Of a DNA stretch of 64,000 nt, positions 6,839 through 59,010 are shown piece after piece. The translations under genes and the position numbers were made by a program. Position 1 is the first letter of the stretch; every line of letters begins with the position of its first letter. A model generated the notes under the pieces. The model did no database searches. It was not told where the DNA came from and was given only the letters and a program-made list of their open reading frames with translations. Source of the DNA: Periplaneta americana (Eukaryota > Arthropoda > Insecta > Blattodea > Blattidae); contig NC_091119.1 in the NCBI RefSeq assembly GCF_040183065.1, positions 66,016,392-66,080,391 on the forward strand. Reading direction: 5' to 3'.

Positions 6839-8093
6839 CCTACATGAAATACAAAATTATGTAATAGAATACAAAACAATATAAAAGAAGATACCTTGAG
6901 ATTACATAAAATATAGTTGTTGTTTAGTCAACTGTCCAAAGATAGGTCTGAACTTCACAAGTGATACCAACATGGCATCACTTATGAAGCAACTAGGCCA
7001 TGAGATAATGGGGTAGGGTGGCCAGCTCCTTTCCCCCTCCATTGCATACATTTCCGACTAGTTACATATTACACTAGCCTGACTTCAGATGTACATAAGC
7101 AATTGTCCTTTCTATGACACAAGTGAGATGTACTGCCTGATAATAGATGTACGTATCAGCCAGAATCTCAATCAGAGGATATAAAATATAGGTAGTAGAA
7201 AACTATAAATAGACAAGATCAGTTACATAATATAAGGAGAATTTAAAATAAAATAGGAAATTACATATTAATCAAATAGGAATATATACAATTTATAAGA
7301 CATAAATTGCTCGAGATAAACTTGACGATTAATTCACTTGAGATATAATAGACAGTTAATGTACTAATAGAAGAATATATATGACTTACAAGACATAAAA
7401 AGTTGAATCGCAAAAACGTACTATATAGCATATGAATATAAACGATTAAGTGAAATATCAAGATAATAAAAAAAAAAAAGAAAAAGCTTGATCGTGTAAA
7501 GCAATTTATTTAGAAACTTCCGCAAGAGTCTAGTTCTGTTCAATAAAAACATGTCTAAGTAAAGTGTACTTAAAAGATTTTAGACTTCGACTACTCCTGA
7601 TTTCCTGTGACAAGGAATTCCAGGAACGGGCTGTGTGTATTTTGAAGAAAGCAGAGTAGAGAGATGTTTGATAATATGGTATGCTGTGAACGTGTATCAC
7701 GTTATGGTGGGATGCTAAAAGTGTGAAGCGAGGAACTAGGTAAATAGGTGTGAAATTATTTAGAATCCTATACAGCAAACAGAGTGAATGAACTGAACGT
7801 CTCTCTCGTAAACGAAGCCAAGATAATTGTAAAGAATACTTGGAGACATTTTCATAGCCACGGCTGTTAAAAGTGAAACGGGCAGAAGCATTATGAGCAC
7901 GATGAATCCTCAATGACAATTCAACACTAAGGTCACTATACAAAACGTCGCAATAGTCAAAGTAAGGCATCACCAGGGTCTGTATCAAGATCTGTTTCAG
8001 TTTAGAAGGAAAAAAGTCTTTCTAGTGAATGCAAGATTGAGAAAGTTTTCTTACAGACATATTTTACCTGTGCATTCCAGCTGACAAGCAAAC

Positions 8094-11374: not shown

Positions 11375-11632
11375 TGTCTGTGGAGTAACGGTTAGCATGC
11401 CTGACCGTGAAACGAGCGGTCCCGGGTTCAAATCCTGGTTGGAACAAGTTACCTGGTTGAGGTTTCTTCCGGGGTTTTCCCACAATCCATTAAGAGCAAA
11501 TGCTGGGTAAATTTCGACACTGGACCCTGGACTCATTTCGCTGCCATTATCATCTTCATCTCATTCAGACACTAGATAACCACAGCAGTTGATAAAGCAT
11601 CATAAAATAACCAATTAAAAAACTAAACACTG
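11375..11632 (+). mobile_element. tRNA-derived SINE (common-tail family)
   Basis: The head runs from TGGAGTAACGGTTAGCATG to a B box in CCCGGGTTCAAATCCTGG. The body follows with GTTACCTGGTTGAGG and the tail with GAGCAAATGCTGGGTAA, TTGATAAAGC and TAAAATAACC. The same tail recurs at 12340, 17460, 33460 (inverse), 58800 (inverse) and elsewhere. Confidence 0.85.
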
Positions 11633-12497: not shown

Positions 12498-12611
12498 TGA
12501 CTCGCGAGATCACATTATTGTGCATATAAGAACTTTTCTGAATCGAGGCGCTTTTGTAACTGATGCTGACAGCCATTATAACTTTTTGCAGGACTCTTCT
12601 TGGTGTTGCAG

Positions 12612-13292
12612 ATGGAAGGCGTGGATTTCAAAATCGTGAAAGCCACAATCGAGGACGACGAGAGAATCAACAAGTTCATGGAAGAAGCGTACATCAAGCA
12701 CGAACCTCTGTCTGTATCTTTGGGACTCAACAACGCCGGTTGGTCTGAAGAAGACGATGAGGGTCCGGAGATTCTGTCCGAAGGCGTATCCTTGATGGCA
12801 GTGGCCCTTGAGGGACGAGAGTTCGAGACGGGCGAGATCCTCGGACTATGCCTGAATGGCGAGATGTCGAGCAACGACGCCGAAATTCTAGCCCGGATGG
12901 CTGCCAACTGCAAAGACAGGAAGTTCGCAAAGATTATGGCTTTCCTGTCCAGGATGGACCGCGACGCCAACATTTGGGGCAGATTTGACGTGCAAAGGGC
13001 CATGGGGATTTTCGTGATGGCTGTGGATAGCAGGGCGACGGGGCGCGGCATCGGAAGGGCGCTGATGGAGCGGTCTCGCGATGTGGCGCGGGCACAGGGC
13101 TTCCCCATGCTGAGGGTGGACTGCACCAGCGATTTCACGGCCAGGATCTGTGGGCGCCTCGGCATGGACTGCGTGCACGTCCAGCCCTACCAACTGTACA
13201 CGGACGACGACGGGCACACCGTATTCAGGCCGCCCGATCCCCACACGCACTTCAGGATGTTCACGCAGAGACTCGACAGTCAACAGACATGA
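12612..13292 (+). CDS. Arylalkylamine N-acetyltransferase-like protein 1 (GNAT fold)
   Basis: Encodes 226 residues from ATG at 12612 to the stop at 13290-13292. Insect aaNATs transfer acetyl from acetyl-CoA to arylalkylamines such as dopamine, serotonin, octopamine and tyramine, serving cuticle tanning and amine inactivation; substrate cannot be told from sequence. The HEPL motif (Glu31) matches the EPLN site that holds the catalytic Glu in Drosophila Dat. RATGRGIG fits the RxxGxG acetyl-CoA loop and is followed by LRVDCTSDFTA and LGMDCVHVQPY, typical of motif B. In the Ser-rich segment this copy has Thr where the paralogues have Ser. The ATG directly follows a consensus acceptor (GTGTTGCAG, 12603-12611), so an upstream 5' exon is likely and not located. 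The domain is unbroken, and a possible poly(A) signal follows at 13393. Confidence 0.85.
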   Translation: MEGVDFKIVKATIEDDERINKFMEEAYIKHEPLSVSLGLNNAGWSEEDDEGPEILSEGVSLMAVALEGREFETGEILGLCLNGEMSSNDAEILARMAANCKDRKFAKIMAFLSRMDRDANIWGRFDVQRAMGIFVMAVDSRATGRGIGRALMERSRDVARAQGFPMLRVDCTSDFTARICGRLGMDCVHVQPYQLYTDDDGHTVFRPPDPHTHFRMFTQRLDSQQT

Positions 13293-14454: not shown

Positions 14455-14675
14455 GGATGATGATGATGATGATGATGCTATGTGAATTAATGATGGCGAA
14501 ATGAGTCTGACGTCCAACGCCGAAAGTCATCCAGCAATTCTGCTTCAATTGGTTGAGAAAAAACCGCGGAAAAAACCCGAACAGGTAACCTGTCCTAACG
14601 AGGATTCGAAATCGGGCCCGCTCGTTTCATGACCAGACGCGCTGACCGTTACTCTACAGCGGTGGACTTAATAAA
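14455..14675 (-). mobile_element. tRNA-derived SINE (common-tail family), minus strand
   Basis: On the minus strand the head reads CCACCGCTGTAGAGTAACGG with a B-box-like GATTTCGAATCC, followed by the usual body. It ends in a (CAT)n tract where the usual tail is lost. Confidence 0.75.
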
Positions 14676-16750: not shown

Positions 16751-17334
16751 CGTGTACCCTAATTATTAAAACCATGTTTTAACTTCAAATTTTCAAAATC
16801 ATACTACATAGTATTCAAAACTGCATGTCTTTAACCTACAAAACGCACGACTAATATTGATACTACTGCGAACATATTATATCATCCTATTCAAAATTTC
16901 ATTTGATCTTTCTGCAACTACAAAAAAAATACAAGGAATTCAATCTCGATAGTCCCTTCCCTATATAAAAAAAAAACACATTGGTGGCTGCATATCCTGT
17001 TTTTAGCGTACGGTTCGTAAATACTAATGATTAAAGATGATATTCACCTTCGACATAGTTCCTATTTTTTTATTCGTGCACCTCGTTCTCAAAGTTCTCG
17101 TTTAGTTTCATGAACATTCAAATTACTCGTATCTATATTCTGCATACTGCAGATTTCCCCATCCATCTCTTAAGGGGAACCGCTCAATATTATACAGGTT
17201 TACGTTATTCTTTATTGTAAATTAAATTAAATTATGAGGTAAGAAAATACTGAATTATATTAAATTATACTAGGTTATACAAAATAATTGTAAATATAAT
17301 TTTGACACGCACAGAAAACCAACAAGCGGGAAAG
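16751..17334. other. No recognisable gene
   Basis: AT-rich sequence; nothing seen beyond chance short frames. Confidence 0.4.
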
Positions 17335-17600
17335 TCCACACCTGTGGAGTAACGGTCAGCGCGTTTGGCTGCGAAACCAGGTGGCCCGGGTTCGAATCCC
17401 GGTCGGGGCAAGTTACCTGGTTGAGGTTTTTTCCGGGGTTTTCCCTCAGCCCAATACGAGCAAATACTGGGTAACTTTCGGTGCTGGACCCCGGACTCAT
17501 TTCACCGGCATTATCACCTTCATATCATTCAGACGCTAAATAACCTAGATGTTGATACAGCGTCGTAAAATAACCCAATAATAATAACAATAATATAACA
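17335..17600 (+). mobile_element. tRNA-derived SINE (common-tail family), well preserved
   Basis: Head TGTGGAGTAACGGTCAGCGC, B box GGGTTCGAATCCC, body GTTACCTGGTTGAGG, then GAGCAAATACTGGGTAACTT, and the end GCGTCGTAAAATAACC followed by an AAT-rich tail. This is among the best-preserved copies in the window. Confidence 0.9.
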
Positions 17601-19093: not shown

Positions 19094-19637
19094 TGTCTCA
19101 TCATAATAGTTTTATTTTGTACAGATTTTGAAGTCCGTTAATAATAAAGGAAAGGAACAGTTATATGAACTGTTTGTTGCATATATTGTAGGCTTTTCTT
19201 TGATAGGAAAAGCTTATTAATGCGTAGAAATCAATAGGAATTGTACCTTTATGGGTCTTGACTGAAGCAAATCGTCCGTCTTACTAAATATGATACGAAA
19301 CGTTGATACACTCATTGTCATGTGACCAAAAATTCGTTTGGATGTTCCTATAGATTCCTATGTAAAAGACGAAATTCTCCAAAAACATGTTTTCTTTCAT
19401 TGATCGGATGTTCGTAAAATCTACGTCATTCTTGTTAAATAAAATGTGCCATATTACTAACGTGTAATTCGTGCAAGTTCCTTAGTCAGAATTAATCATA
19501 TTTTAATTATTAAGTAAACACCAACACTGCAAAAGAAAACAGTGATAAGATGATGCGTAAAAAGAAGTAAAAGAACAAACATTTTGTTCGCCTCAAATTC
19601 GTCATATTGGTCTATATATAACAGCAATCGCTTGATC
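19094..19637. other. No recognisable gene
   Basis: AT-rich spacer leading into the large tetranucleotide tract. Confidence 0.4.
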
Positions 19638-20360
<723 letters not shown>

Positions 20361-20654
20361 TCTTGAGGGGAGGGGCATGGACTGGGAACTGCTCTAGCAT
20401 ATAGGCCGACCGCAGTACAGATTCCCTTGCGGGCCTGCTCCTAGCTCTCCTACATTCTACATTATTGCTTTACTTTTCCGCATAGATCTCACCGCGATCC
20501 CTCAATTCCGGTTCCATAAGCTACCAGAGACCAGGGGAGGCCACGGTAGATATCACTACCATCAGCAACTAATGACCACACACTACCGGGTCCAAGTTCA
20601 GTGGTGGCCCGCAGTCGACTCTCGGAGCAAGTCTGGGGAAGAAACGAACGAGGG
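20361..20654. other. No recognisable gene
   Basis: Moderately GC-rich DNA before the SINE, perhaps an unrecognised repeat; no supported feature. Confidence 0.3.
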
Positions 20655-20826
20655 GAAGTGTGATTATGGTGGCGAAAATGAATCCGAGGTCCAACGTTGA
20701 AAGTTACCCAGAAATTCTGCTTCAATTGGTTGAGGAAAAACCTCAACGAGATAATTTGTCCCAACCAGGATTTGAACTCGGGCCATCTCGTTTCACAGTC
20801 AACATTCTAACAATTACTTCACAGCG
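20655..20826 (-). mobile_element. tRNA-derived SINE (common family), minus strand, split by Transib
   Basis: On the + strand it carries CCAACGTTGAAAGTTACCCA, GGTTGAGGAAAAACCTC and a B-box inverse (GGATTTGAACTCGGGCC). The head should end near CTACAGCGGTGGAC, but after CACAGCG it is broken by the Transib element. The missing piece CAGCGGGGGAC resumes at 22990. Confidence 0.85.
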
Positions 20827-20865
20827 CACAGTGTGCAATTTTTCCAATCTAGGTGGACAAAAATC
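20827..20865 (+). promoter_or_regulatory. Left Transib end, 23-RSS-like (heptamer, 23-bp spacer, nonamer)
   Basis: Heptamer CACAGTG (20827-20833) equals the V(D)J consensus. The spacer is exactly 23 bp (20834-20856). The nonamer ACAAAAATC (20857-20865) matches the consensus ACAAAAACC at 8 of 9 positions. Such ends are the binding and cleavage sites of Transib transposases. Confidence 0.85.
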
Positions 20866-21512
20866 AAATTTCGACTTGTCTAGTTTGGCATAGATGAATA
20901 TGAATTCATGTTCTTTAATGTTTGGAGAATGTTGTGACGGATAGCTTTTACTGTTTTATCAGGAGCAAGCTATTTTTAGAAGGGTGGGAGCACTGAGTTC
21001 TTCCTTGCATTTCTTGCTCCGGTTCAGTCGTAGGCAAAGTAGCTTACTGTGTGGGCGAAAAAGTGCCAGCTGATAGTTATTATTTGTATTCTGAGACATG
21101 GAATCTGTTCAGACAGGTATGTTCTTACTAATGATACTTCAGTTTTTAGTTTGTAAATTATTATTCTTCTTACAATAGGGTTTAAATATTACAATTGAAA
21201 AAAATATTTTTTTTTTCAAGTTCTCCAAATATAATCGGAGTTTTAGTGTCTCCGGTCACGTCCGGTTACGACAATTCTTTTAGCATTTAATAAAACAACA
21301 TTTAGAGTGGTAAATCCTTGTTTTAAATTTTGCGCGTTCTTGCGCATTTATCAGCAATTAATTGTTTTCAGTGGCGGCGCACACTGTAACGCGGCTGCAA
21401 CTATTCCATGTTTGGCTAAGCAGTAAAGAATCACGAAATGTAATTTTTAATGTGTGAGTGTTTTAGGCCTACAGAATTATTCACATGACATTGAAGTTCA
21501 GATTAAAATACA

Positions 21513-22205
21513 TTGGAAACATTTTTATCCAACCTCAACAAACGGTGGACAAATCCGTATGTAACGAAAGGAAAAAAAGTAATACAAGAAAAATTCAGAA
21601 CTGATATGGGTCCCATAGTTGACAAACCTCAACCAGGTAGTGGCACCAGTAATGATGGTAATACTGCAAGAAGATTCTTCAGAAATTCAAAACAAAGTAG
21701 TGATATTACTGGAATTAATGAAGAACTTATACGACGATTCTGTGTGATTTTGGAAACAATAGCAAGTGGTTACGATATAAATTTAGAAGCATTCAGATTA
21801 TACACAGCAGAAACAAAAACAGTCCATATGGAATTATATCCCTGGTATTTCATGCCGGTAACAGTTCACAAAATTTTATTTCACAGCACAGAAATAATAA
21901 AATCTTGCATATTACCCATTGGGCAACTTTCTGAAGAGGCACAGGAAGCAAGGAACAAAGATTTGAGAAAGTTTAGGGAAGGACATACCAGAAAGAAGTC
22001 AAGAATATCTACAAATCAAGATCTTTTATCAATGTTGCTCGTGTTATCTGATCCCCTCATTTCTTCATTAAGAAAACTTCCCATGAAGAAAAGTGGGAGC
22101 CTATCACCACACGTGATTAATCTGCTACTGCCCAGTCCACCAGTAAGCAGGTCGGCAACGTCAGAAGCATCTGGCGATATTTCCAGTGAAACGGATAGTG
22201 AATAA
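21513..22205 (+). CDS. Transib/RAG1-like transposase, C-terminal exon
   Basis: The frame is open from 21507 to the stop at 22203-22205. Counting from 21513 it has 230 residues and no ATG at its start, as expected of an internal or last exon. GTSNDGNTARRFF (44-56) matches the NGNxAR region of the RAG1 core. VHKILFHSTEIIKS (118-131) followed by GQLSEEAQEARNKDLRKFRE (137-156) aligns with the RAG1 stretch holding the third catalytic acid (mouse Glu962, in ASEGNESGNK followed by FRRFR). The tail ends in an acidic, Ser-rich piece. RAG1 alignment is from memory of the family and should be confirmed by profile search. The two upstream aspartates are not encoded here. Confidence 0.75.
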   Translation: METFLSNLNKRWTNPYVTKGKKVIQEKFRTDMGPIVDKPQPGSGTSNDGNTARRFFRNSKQSSDITGINEELIRRFCVILETIASGYDINLEAFRLYTAETKTVHMELYPWYFMPVTVHKILFHSTEIIKSCILPIGQLSEEAQEARNKDLRKFREGHTRKKSRISTNQDLLSMLLVLSDPLISSLRKLPMKKSGSLSPHVINLLLPSPPVSRSATSEASGDISSETDSE

Positions 22206-22950
22206 AGCACGCCTGTAAATTAGCCTATATTTTTATTAGTGTTATAATTTTTATTCTAGACAAATAACAGCAGATCTATTGTCTCAGTTGTATATATACT
22301 CTTCATTACGGCATAAAATAATATGACGGATTTGTTTAAAGAAATTGTTGTAAATTCAAATCATTTCGCACATTTATGTTATAAAGTGTATTATTTATTT
22401 TGCCATATCACTTTGAGTGGAGTAAAACTTAGATAATTCACTACAATAAATTATGAAACTGAGAATAATGTTATAATATGTAAATTCACTTTCAGTTAAA
22501 TATTTAATTCAAATATTAATGTTCCTGGCATTGGGTCAAAATAAATAAATTAATTCAAATCAATTATTTCTTTAACAGAAATGGTTCAAAATATATTCTG
22601 TCCTGTTACAACACTTCAAATATTTCAATATTTAATACACATATTAATTTTAATTAGGCCTACAATGTGTTCTGTGGAAAAGAAAATAATATTTTCACTC
22701 TTATTTAAGGGGATTTATAAATATCATTTTCCCATTAAACATTACATTCTACATTGGAGAAATATTTCACACTAAGAACTTATTTTCAATGTAATATGTT
22801 CATTCAAAACAAATATATCGTTCTCACCCTTATGTGAAAGGGTTGAATTAATCACCCGATTTAAATCAAAATTGAAACACATCTTTCTAAGGTTGATATA
22901 AACTTTAATATAAAGTTTCATCGAAATCTGACCAAAGGAAAGTGAGAAAT

Positions 22951-22989
22951 TAGTTTTGTCCAGCTAGATTGGGAATATTGCACACTGTG
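22951..22989 (-). promoter_or_regulatory. Right Transib end, 23-RSS-like
   Basis: Read inward on the minus strand: heptamer CACAGTG (22989-22983), 23-bp spacer (22982-22960) and nonamer ACAAAACTA (22959-22951), which matches the V(D)J nonamer at its first six positions. The spacer is nearly the same sequence as the left one. Confidence 0.8.
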
Positions 22990-23034
22990 CAGCGGGGGAC
23001 TTTAGTTATGCTCGTTCATATAATTCCTCTGAGG

Positions 23035-23255
23035 TGACTGACTGAGAAGAAACTGCCTACTGAAAGATGCATTGGAAGGAATGGTGAACGGGAGAAGAGT
23101 TCGGGGTAGAAGAAGACATCAGATGATAGACGACTTTAAGATATATGGATCATATGAGGAAACAAAGAGGAAGACAGAAAATAGGAAAGATTGGAGGAAG
23201 CTGGGTTTGCAGTGCAAACCTACCCTTGGGCAGAACACTAAATAAAATGAATAAC
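23035..23255 (+). mobile_element. LINE ORF2 extreme C-terminus and 3' tail
   Basis: The + strand reads LTEKKLPTERCIGRNGER, then RRRHQMIDDFKIYGSYEETK and DWRKLGLQ, ending in a short AT-rich tail. It is the same 3' end as the minus-strand copies at 13490, 29745 and 37388, and is strongly 5'-truncated. Confidence 0.8.
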
Positions 23256-24190: not shown

Positions 24191-24534
24191 CTCTTCTTCC
24201 ATTTGCAGTTCGGGATAACCAATGCCCTTTCCGCGACTACGAAAATTGATCTATCACCGAAATTGTCTTCCTATGTTTTGGGTTACTCTTACTTTATAGT
24301 TTATTAATAATTTCCTAGGTAAACGGTTAACTGGAATCCTCTGAACGTGATGACTCCATTTGGACTGTTGTTTTTTTGTTACCTTTTCTTCGACATGCCA
24401 TTTTTCTCTAATTTCCTCAGTTATAATGCTATCTCGTAAAGTAACTCCACTCAACGAGCGTAGAAATAATATTTTTATTACTATTAATATTATTGTTATT
24501 AATAATAAGCGATCGCTAGTGTGGACTTGTGCAG
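24191..24534. other. Upstream region of aaNAT-2, non-coding
   Basis: AT-rich, ending in the acceptor-like GACTTGTGCAG (24524-24534), so it is probably intron or promoter-proximal DNA of aaNAT-2. A minus-strand frame that runs through it is a shadow of the GC-rich exon. Confidence 0.4.
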
Positions 24535-25203
24535 ATAGGTGAGTACGGCATCGTGCAGGCCAGAGCGGCAGACAGAGAGCGAATACTGCATTTTCTGCGC
24601 CTGTACTTCTACACTGAGGAGCCGTTGAACGTGGCCATGGGCGGCCCGCCCAGCGCAGCGGACGAGGAAGACACACTGGCGCTGCTGGAGCACGGGCTGA
24701 GCTACCTGGTCGTGGGCTGCGACGGCACACTGCTGGGCGTGGTGCTCAGCGGGCCCGTGAGGCCCGACGAGGCGGACCACATGGAGGCGCTGGCCGCCTC
24801 GTGCGGCTGCGCCAAGTTCTCCAAGCTGCTCCGCTTCCTGGCGGCGGTGGAGCGCCGTGCCGACGTGTGGCGGCTCAGCGGAGCGACGCGCGCGCTCAGC
24901 GTCCAGGCCCTGGCCGTGCTGCCCGCCGCGCGGGGCCGGGGCTTCGGGCTCTCGCTGCTCCAGAGGACGCGCGCCGCCGCCCAGGCCGCCGGCTACCCGC
25001 TGTTTCGGCTGGACTGCTCCAGTTGCTATTCGGCGCAGCTGGCCGAGCGCCTGGGGATGCAGTGCGTGCACTCTCTGCCGTACACGCAGTACACGGACGT
25101 GGACGGCCATCCCGTCTTTGACATCCCTAGCCCTCATCTGGAGATGAGGACGTACATCCAGTCTATTGAGTGCAGCGGACCACTGTGGTCACTCGAGAGG
25201 TAG
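24535..25203 (+). CDS. Arylalkylamine N-acetyltransferase-like protein 2 (exon without ATG)
   Basis: Encodes 222 residues and a TAG at 25201-25203. The predicted role is the same as aaNAT-1: acetyl-CoA-dependent N-acetylation of an amine, cytosolic, substrate unknown. Motifs include EEPLNVAMG (catalytic-type Glu at residue 29), RGRGFG (RxxGxG loop), LDCSSCYSA and LGMQCVHSLPYTQY. The exon opens with ATA after an acceptor (TTGTGCAG), exactly where the other two paralogues have ATG. So its start must lie in an upstream exon, or the copy has lost its start. The coding DNA is strikingly GC-rich against AT-rich flanks. The frame is intact to the end and carries a C-terminal extension (GPLWSLER) missing in aaNAT-3. 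An ATTAAA at 25250 is a possible poly(A) signal. A functional gene is more likely than a pseudogene because no stop or frameshift occurs. Confidence 0.8.
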   Translation: MGEYGIVQARAADRERILHFLRLYFYTEEPLNVAMGGPPSAADEEDTLALLEHGLSYLVVGCDGTLLGVVLSGPVRPDEADHMEALAASCGCAKFSKLLRFLAAVERRADVWRLSGATRALSVQALAVLPAARGRGFGLSLLQRTRAAAQAAGYPLFRLDCSSCYSAQLAERLGMQCVHSLPYTQYTDVDGHPVFDIPSPHLEMRTYIQSIECSGPLWSLER

Positions 25204-33451: not shown

Positions 33452-33698
33452 TTAGTAGGTTATTTTACGACGCTTTATCAACATCTTAGGTTATTTAGAT
33501 TCTGAATGAGATGAAGGTGATAATGCCGGTGAAATGAGTCCGGATTCCAGCACCGATTGCTACCCAGCATTTGCCCATTTTGAGTTGAGGGAAAACCCCG
33601 AAAAAATCTCAACCAGGTAACTTGCCCCGACCGGCAATCGAACCCGGGCCACCTGGTTTCGCGCTGAGACACGCTAACCGTTACTCCACAGGTATGGA
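33452..33698 (-). mobile_element. tRNA-derived SINE (common-tail family), minus strand
   Basis: On the minus strand: head CTGTGGAGTAACGGTTAGCG, B box in GGGTTCGATTGCC, then CAAGTTACCTGGTTGAG, and tail TTGATAAAGCGTCGTAAAAT. Nearly full length. Confidence 0.9.
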
Positions 33699-58797: not shown

Positions 58798-59010
58798 GAA
58801 GTTTTATCAACCGCTGCGGTTATCTAGCGACTGAATGATATGAAAGTGATAATGCCGGCGAAATAAGTCCAGGGTCCAGCGCCGAAAGTTACCCAGCATT
58901 TGCTCTTAATGAGTTGAGGGGAAAACCCTCAACCAAGTAACTTGTCCCAACCAGGATTTGAATCCGGGCCCGCTATTTTCAGGCCAATCGTTACTCTACA
59001 GCGGTGGACA
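58798..59010 (-). mobile_element. tRNA-derived SINE (common-tail family), minus strand
   Basis: Minus strand: CCACCGCTGTAGAGTAACG, B box in CGGATTCAAATCCTGG, TACTTGGTTGAGGG and the tail GAGCAAATGCTGGGTAACTT. Confidence 0.85.

Follow-up and report, generated by a model that had tools for sequence, protein, structure and literature searches.

Features of the locus

Positions 20827-22989 of the window, by which we mean the whole 64,000-nucleotide stretch of Periplaneta americana DNA analyzed here, hold a copy of a Transib transposon that is 2163 bp long. Transib is a transposon family with a known kinship to the enzyme responsible for cutting antibody genes in vertebrates. The features of the copy, including those that resemble a V(D)J recombination signal (RSS), are given below in their order along the window.

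20822..20826, no strand: left copy of the target site duplication (TSD), CAGCG, 5 bp; direct reading and the unduplicated site in two window repeats
20827..22989, plus strand: non-autonomous Transib copy, 2163 bp; terminal inverted repeats (TIRs), TSD, transposase remnant and empty-site paralogues
20827..20862, plus strand: left TIR, 36 nt, starting CACAGTG; repeat search and end comparison
20827..20833, plus strand: left RSS-like heptamer, CACAGTG; end comparison
20857..20865, plus strand: left nonamer-like sequence ACAAAAATC, 8/9 to ACAAAAACC, 23 bp past the heptamer
21558..22202, plus strand: C-terminal third of a transposase, covering the homologous portion of the frame at 21513-22205; phmmer
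21945..21947, plus strand: codon of the sole retained catalytic acid, residue 145 of the frame and the Glu of EARNK, which aligns with Hztransib E436
22951..22959, minus strand: right nonamer-like sequence ACAAAACTA, 6/9 to ACAAAAACC, 23 bp past the heptamer
22954..22989, minus strand: right TIR, 36 nt, starting CACAGTG on this strand and matching the left TIR at 33/36 positions; repeat search and end comparison
22983..22989, minus strand: right RSS-like heptamer, CACAGTG; end comparison
22990..22994, no strand: right copy of the TSD, CAGCG, 5 bp; direct reading

Here, ACAAAAACC is the RSS nonamer consensus as it appears in PMC8289069 (this and the other papers cited by accession are drawn on through excerpts).

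The copy is flanked by two different dispersed repeats. Its left flank (20646-20826) is part of a diverged repeat, at the 3' edge of which the element lies; the other copies, at 14490-14669, 17331-17521, 11378-11566, 58846-58981 and 33602-33691, are 71-77% identical to the left flank. The right-flank repeat begins at about 23033 (23033-23251) and has three further copies in the window (29939-29739, 37587-37385 and 13685-13498), which are 83-84% identical to the right-flank copy.

Other features of the window were recorded alongside these. A long tandem repeat on the plus strand (19584-20306) reads as YLSIYLSI in one frame. Two plus-strand frames, 12600-13292 and 24529-25203, are GNAT acetyltransferases (Pfam Acetyltransf_1), the first of which had only two database matches at an E value of at most 0.001, including the match to the window itself. 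Furthermore, a minus-strand frame at 7530-7988 looks retroelement-derived by eye and gave no Pfam match; five of its seven database relatives carry the name Periplaneta americana, and the closest, which is not among these five, is 80% identical. These relatives make a cockroach-type host likely.

Ends and target site of the element

The original prediction had placed the element at 20827-22989, and these boundaries proved exact according to the TSD, the inverted arms and the empty-site paralogues. The repeat search returned inverted arms of 37 nt that are 92% complementary (20826-20862 and 22954-22990), with one base on each side falling outside the element. Read inward, the two ends differ at three of their first 36 positions (14, 17 and 27), and the next mismatches are at 37 and 39. 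As in the Transib superfamily, the inverted repeats start with CAC within an RSS-like heptamer, CACAGTG at both ends, and a 5-bp GC-rich duplication, CAGCG, flanks the element on both sides. Compared with a 23-RSS, the heptamer is exact twice (7/7) and the spacer is 23 bp twice, so that the symmetric 23/23 arrangement and the exact heptamers of the original prediction hold, and recomputation returned the same nonamer scores of 8/9 (left) and 6/9 (right).

The perfect CAGCG duplication, also predicted, was read directly, and two repeats in the window carry the site unduplicated. These were recovered by joining the two flanks in silico and aligning the product to the window repeats. The copy at 14490-14669 spans the insertion point at 74% identity, contains CAGCG once and reads CAGCGGTGGACTT vs CAGCGGGGGACTT for the joined site. 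The copy at 17521-17331, on the other strand, also spans the insertion point (71% identity), has CAGGT at this place and reads CAGGTGTGGACTTT. Both spanning alignments extend past the junction by only 8-9 bases. In three more copies of the repeat (11566-11378, 58846-58981 and 33602-33691), the alignment breaks off short of the duplicated site or partway into it, and a 36-base piece (12407-12372) matches the left-flank repeat farther left. Since the spanning paralogues retain an unduplicated site, the boundaries and the 5-bp duplication are supported independently of the ends themselves.

A search of the window with the end pattern, in which up to 3 mismatches were tolerated, revealed no second copy of the element. 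In viral contigs, protein, pattern and alignment searches confirmed no relative (15 and 31 candidate stretches with none confirmed, and zero in one search), and neither did alignment against prokaryote contigs (112 candidate stretches, none confirmed); neither collection is one in which an insect element would be expected.

Identity of the transposase remnant

The plus-strand frame at 21513-22205 identifies the element as a Transib, in agreement with the original prediction. Its residues 20-194 align to positions 293-469 of a transposase of solved structure, 6pqn_A, with an E value of 7e-55 (phmmer), and the end of the frame aligns with the C-terminus of the relative P0009. We take the 6pqn chain, together with 6pqr, 6pqu, 6pqx, 6pqy and 6pr5, to be Hztransib of Helicoverpa zea, with which the numbering of its catalytic residues agrees. 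It is labeled DNA-mediated transposase in the PDB table, and 6PQX, 6PQY and 6PR5, which have the same sequence as 6pqn_A, are termed Transib in PMC11844651.

The frame has 672 database relatives at an E value of at most 0.001 among 1458 candidates. Of these 672, 120 relatives were listed; 91 of the 120 are 560-760 aa long, and the seven that carry species names are all insects (Spodoptera litura, Zophobas morio, Eurosta solidaginis, Temnothorax curvispinosus, Bactrocera neohumeralis, Periplaneta americana and Aquatica leii). One full-length relative, P0002, gave an E value of 3e-122 against 6pqn_A and E values between 7.5e-8 and 9.5e-6 against 15 distinct RAG1 sequences from solved structures.

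The original prediction had proposed a Transib/RAG1 profile search on the 21513-22205 product as a check. A profile of 687 positions, built from the 91 full-length relatives (560-760 aa) among the 120 fetched, matches the frame with an i-E value of 1.3e-104, which together with the 6pqn_A match makes it a transposase of the Transib/RAG1 type. The Pfam RAG1 profile scored the frame below its cut-off (E value of 0.14), and the match to the RAG1L chain 6b40_A is weak (E value of 0.0013). The Pfam RAG1 cut-off was reached by three of the four full-length relatives scanned, with P0004 falling below it.

Extent of the deletion

Only the last third of the transposase is contained in the element, corresponding to positions 466-677 of the 687 in the profile. 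Positions 1-465 were not found when the 91-relative profile was run on 116 six-frame pieces of the element, and among the 20 profile rows listed nothing in the element outside the frame was better than an i-E value of 2.2. Likewise, this profile found no other Transib piece at an E value of at most 1 in six-frame fragments of the window. The tblastn search placed 93 pieces in the 21-kb bin of the window, with the best three listed; eight single pieces elsewhere in the window, with E values of 0.24-0.99, were weak and taken as chance.

The catalytic residues of Hztransib are D126, D225 and E436 (PMC6941560). By our own reckoning, an offset of 17 converts this numbering to that of the 6pqn chain, which puts D126 at the D of WGFD (109), D225 at the D of IDG (208) and E436 at the Glu of SEARNK (419). 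Since the frame matches the chain only from position 293, both catalytic aspartates are absent. Thus, in place of the complete DDE triad and full transposase of an autonomous Transib, the copy has the Glu and lacks the equivalents of D126 and D225. With only the last third of the gene and no catalytic aspartates, it is a non-autonomous deletion copy, unable to make a complete DDE transposase. It is no source of enzyme either, being a deletion derivative without two of the three catalytic residues.

The listed start of the frame, at 21513, is a TTG and an unlikely one for a eukaryote, since the frame has no ATG until 21606, which already lies in the homologous stretch. The element holds no second long frame: apart from that of the transposase, the longest on the list has 77 aa and extends over the left end, and the next two have 64 aa. 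Inspection of the list by eye, for what is a deletion copy, showed nothing like RAG2. An ATG at 21098 on the plus strand is followed by a donor-like GTATGT at 21117-21122 inside the element, also seen by eye. These are possibly the remains of a short spliced first exon, and the N-termini of the 25 relatives listed show no likeness to it.

Interpretation of the element and its ends

We conclude, with little room for doubt, that the locus is a copy of a DNA transposon of the Transib superfamily that has kept both ends, is without the initial two thirds or so of its transposase gene and has the CAGCG duplication of 5 bp on either side. It presumably moved by cut-and-paste. Since the ends are intact, a full-length relative could move such a deletion copy in trans, and this is the probable route of its movement. 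The RAG1-like DDE enzyme of the relative would bind the continuous 36-bp inverted repeats and cut at CAC, producing hairpins on the flanks, after which the element ends would be joined to a 5-bp target. A cut-and-hairpin mechanism of this kind is reported for Hztransib (PMC6941560). The deletion itself may have come after the insertion.

The reading of the ends is a separate matter. According to one alternative, the transposase of this family reads a true bipartite signal, a heptamer and a nonamer held 23 bp apart, through RSS-type recognition like that of vertebrate RAG. In its favor, each end has an exact heptamer and 23-bp spacing, the left nonamer scores 8/9, and excerpts of PMC8355894 and PMC6941560 describe RSS-identical elements at some Transib ends. 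However, if the signal had two parts, the spacer between them should vary freely, and in the two ends of this one copy the spacer agrees at 20/23 positions, compared with 7/7 for the heptamer and 7/9 for the nonamer. The block conserved between the ends stops inside the nonamer, after ACAAAA; the right nonamer scores only 6/9, and most Transib families, Hztransib among them, show little or no nonamer likeness according to PMC8289069. We consequently hold a bipartite signal to be quite improbable here. The same low probability applies to the more specific idea that the Transib enzyme of the cockroach lineage reads a genuine symmetric 23-RSS, with the vertebrate heptamer, a 23-bp spacer and an RSS-type nonamer, in which case it and vertebrate RAG might each process the other's ends.

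The comparison is instead suggestive of a single uninterrupted inverted repeat, some 36 bp long and rich in A at its inner edge, suggestive rather than conclusive because two ends of a single copy were compared. To describe these ends as near-perfect V(D)J signals, as the original prediction did, is too strong. The heptamer and the 23-bp spacing hold, but the right nonamer scores only 6/9, and the agreement between the ends continues across the spacer and breaks off within the nonamer. It is accepted that the RAG1 core and Transib share an ancestor, and the likeness to an RSS reflects this ancestry together with the run of A-rich sequence at the inner edge. On its own, the likeness is no demonstration of a two-part heptamer-nonamer signal.

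A further alternative concerns the coding remnant, which might be a domesticated host gene derived from the C-terminus of a transposase. The frame is indeed open, without stops, over 232 codons, and it keeps the columns that are invariant in a 13-sequence alignment (the frame itself included). However, a fairly young deletion copy accounts for the open frame equally well, both inverted repeats and the perfect duplication are present, no ATG precedes the one at 21606 within the homologous part, and two of the three catalytic acids are missing. Domestication is thus very unlikely, even more so than a bipartite signal, and a non-autonomous Transib copy remains our preferred explanation.

Finally, the likeness of the ends to an RSS could be sought in chance. 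The whole window was scanned for any CAC...GTG pair 150-6000 bp apart with an identical flanking 5-mer, and the single pair with at least 15/25 end matches was that of the element ends, at 23/25. In 40 shuffled windows, in which bases were permuted within 200-bp blocks and dinucleotides were not kept, the best end match was 16/25. A 26-base end pattern, allowing up to 3 mismatches, matched the window only at the two element ends and had 0 matches in 100 dinucleotide shuffles. At a fixed place and with the composition of the window, the chance of a nonamer score of at least 8/9 is about 1.8e-4 and that of at least 6/9 about 0.015, two scores that are not independent because the two ends are homologous. 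Although the heptamer CACAGTG alone is common, with 11 occurrences in the window on either strand, a chance likeness in unrelated DNA has a negligible probability and is already refuted by the combination of the 33/36 inverted match, the perfect TSD, the transposase homology and the empty-site paralogues, with shuffles reaching no higher than 16/25.

Comparison with known systems

The element is one more Transib of a known type, and signal-like ends have been described in Transib before. RSS-like ends of Transib families were reported by Kapitonov and Jurka in 2005, as related in PMC8355894 and PMC6941560; these families share with the present copy a heptamer and an A-rich nonamer-like stretch, some of them identical to RSS elements. 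With the likeness between Transib ends and V(D)J signals on record since 2005, our results confirm this picture rather than change it. The special place given to this family in the original prediction on account of its vertebrate heptamer is not supported, as excerpts of PMC6941560 and PMC8355894 already mention some Transib ends with heptamers and nonamers identical to those of RSSs.

Spacing is where the described families differ. PMC6941560 mentions some Transibs whose consensus heptamers and nonamers are identical to those recognized by RAG, with various spacer lengths. In PMC8355894, symmetric Transibs have spacers of 20-22 bp and a few have 12/23 asymmetry, some heptamers and nonamers of the latter being identical to canonical RSSs, whereas the spacer here is 23 bp at both ends. 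According to PMC8289069, most families have symmetric TIRs with heptamer likeness and little or no nonamer likeness. None of the excerpts of PMC6941560, PMC8355894 and PMC8289069 names a Transib with CACAGTG and symmetric 23/23 spacing, which may or may not be in print.

Among individual elements, Hztransib of Helicoverpa zea shares with the copy the transposase C-terminus (E value of 7e-55, chain positions 293-469), the TIRs and a 5-bp TSD, which in Hztransib is GCTCG (PMC1852546). In contrast, Hztransib is 3518 bp long with a deduced product of 489 aa (PMC1852546), and the copy here, at 2163 bp, is missing the initial two thirds of the gene. Insect Transib transposases in public data include P0002, P0009, P0021 of Spodoptera litura, P0047 of Zophobas morio and P0083 of Periplaneta americana. 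The frame is 50-57% identical to the 12 relatives aligned with it; many of the insect transposases are full length, unlike the frame.

Farther away, ProtoRAG of amphioxus has the heptamer CACTATG, spacers of 27 and 31 and little nonamer likeness (PMC8289069), all different from the ends described here. The vertebrate system shares the heptamer, CACAGTG being the RSS consensus, and a 5-bp GC-biased duplication (PMC8289069); unlike the 23/23 element, however, it pairs 12 with 23 and its signals are bipartite. The conservation through the spacer is a caution in this comparison, since it suggests a continuous repeat rather than a two-part signal. What the present copy adds, from a cockroach genome, is one well-delimited Transib that combines the exact vertebrate heptamer with symmetric 23-bp spacing.
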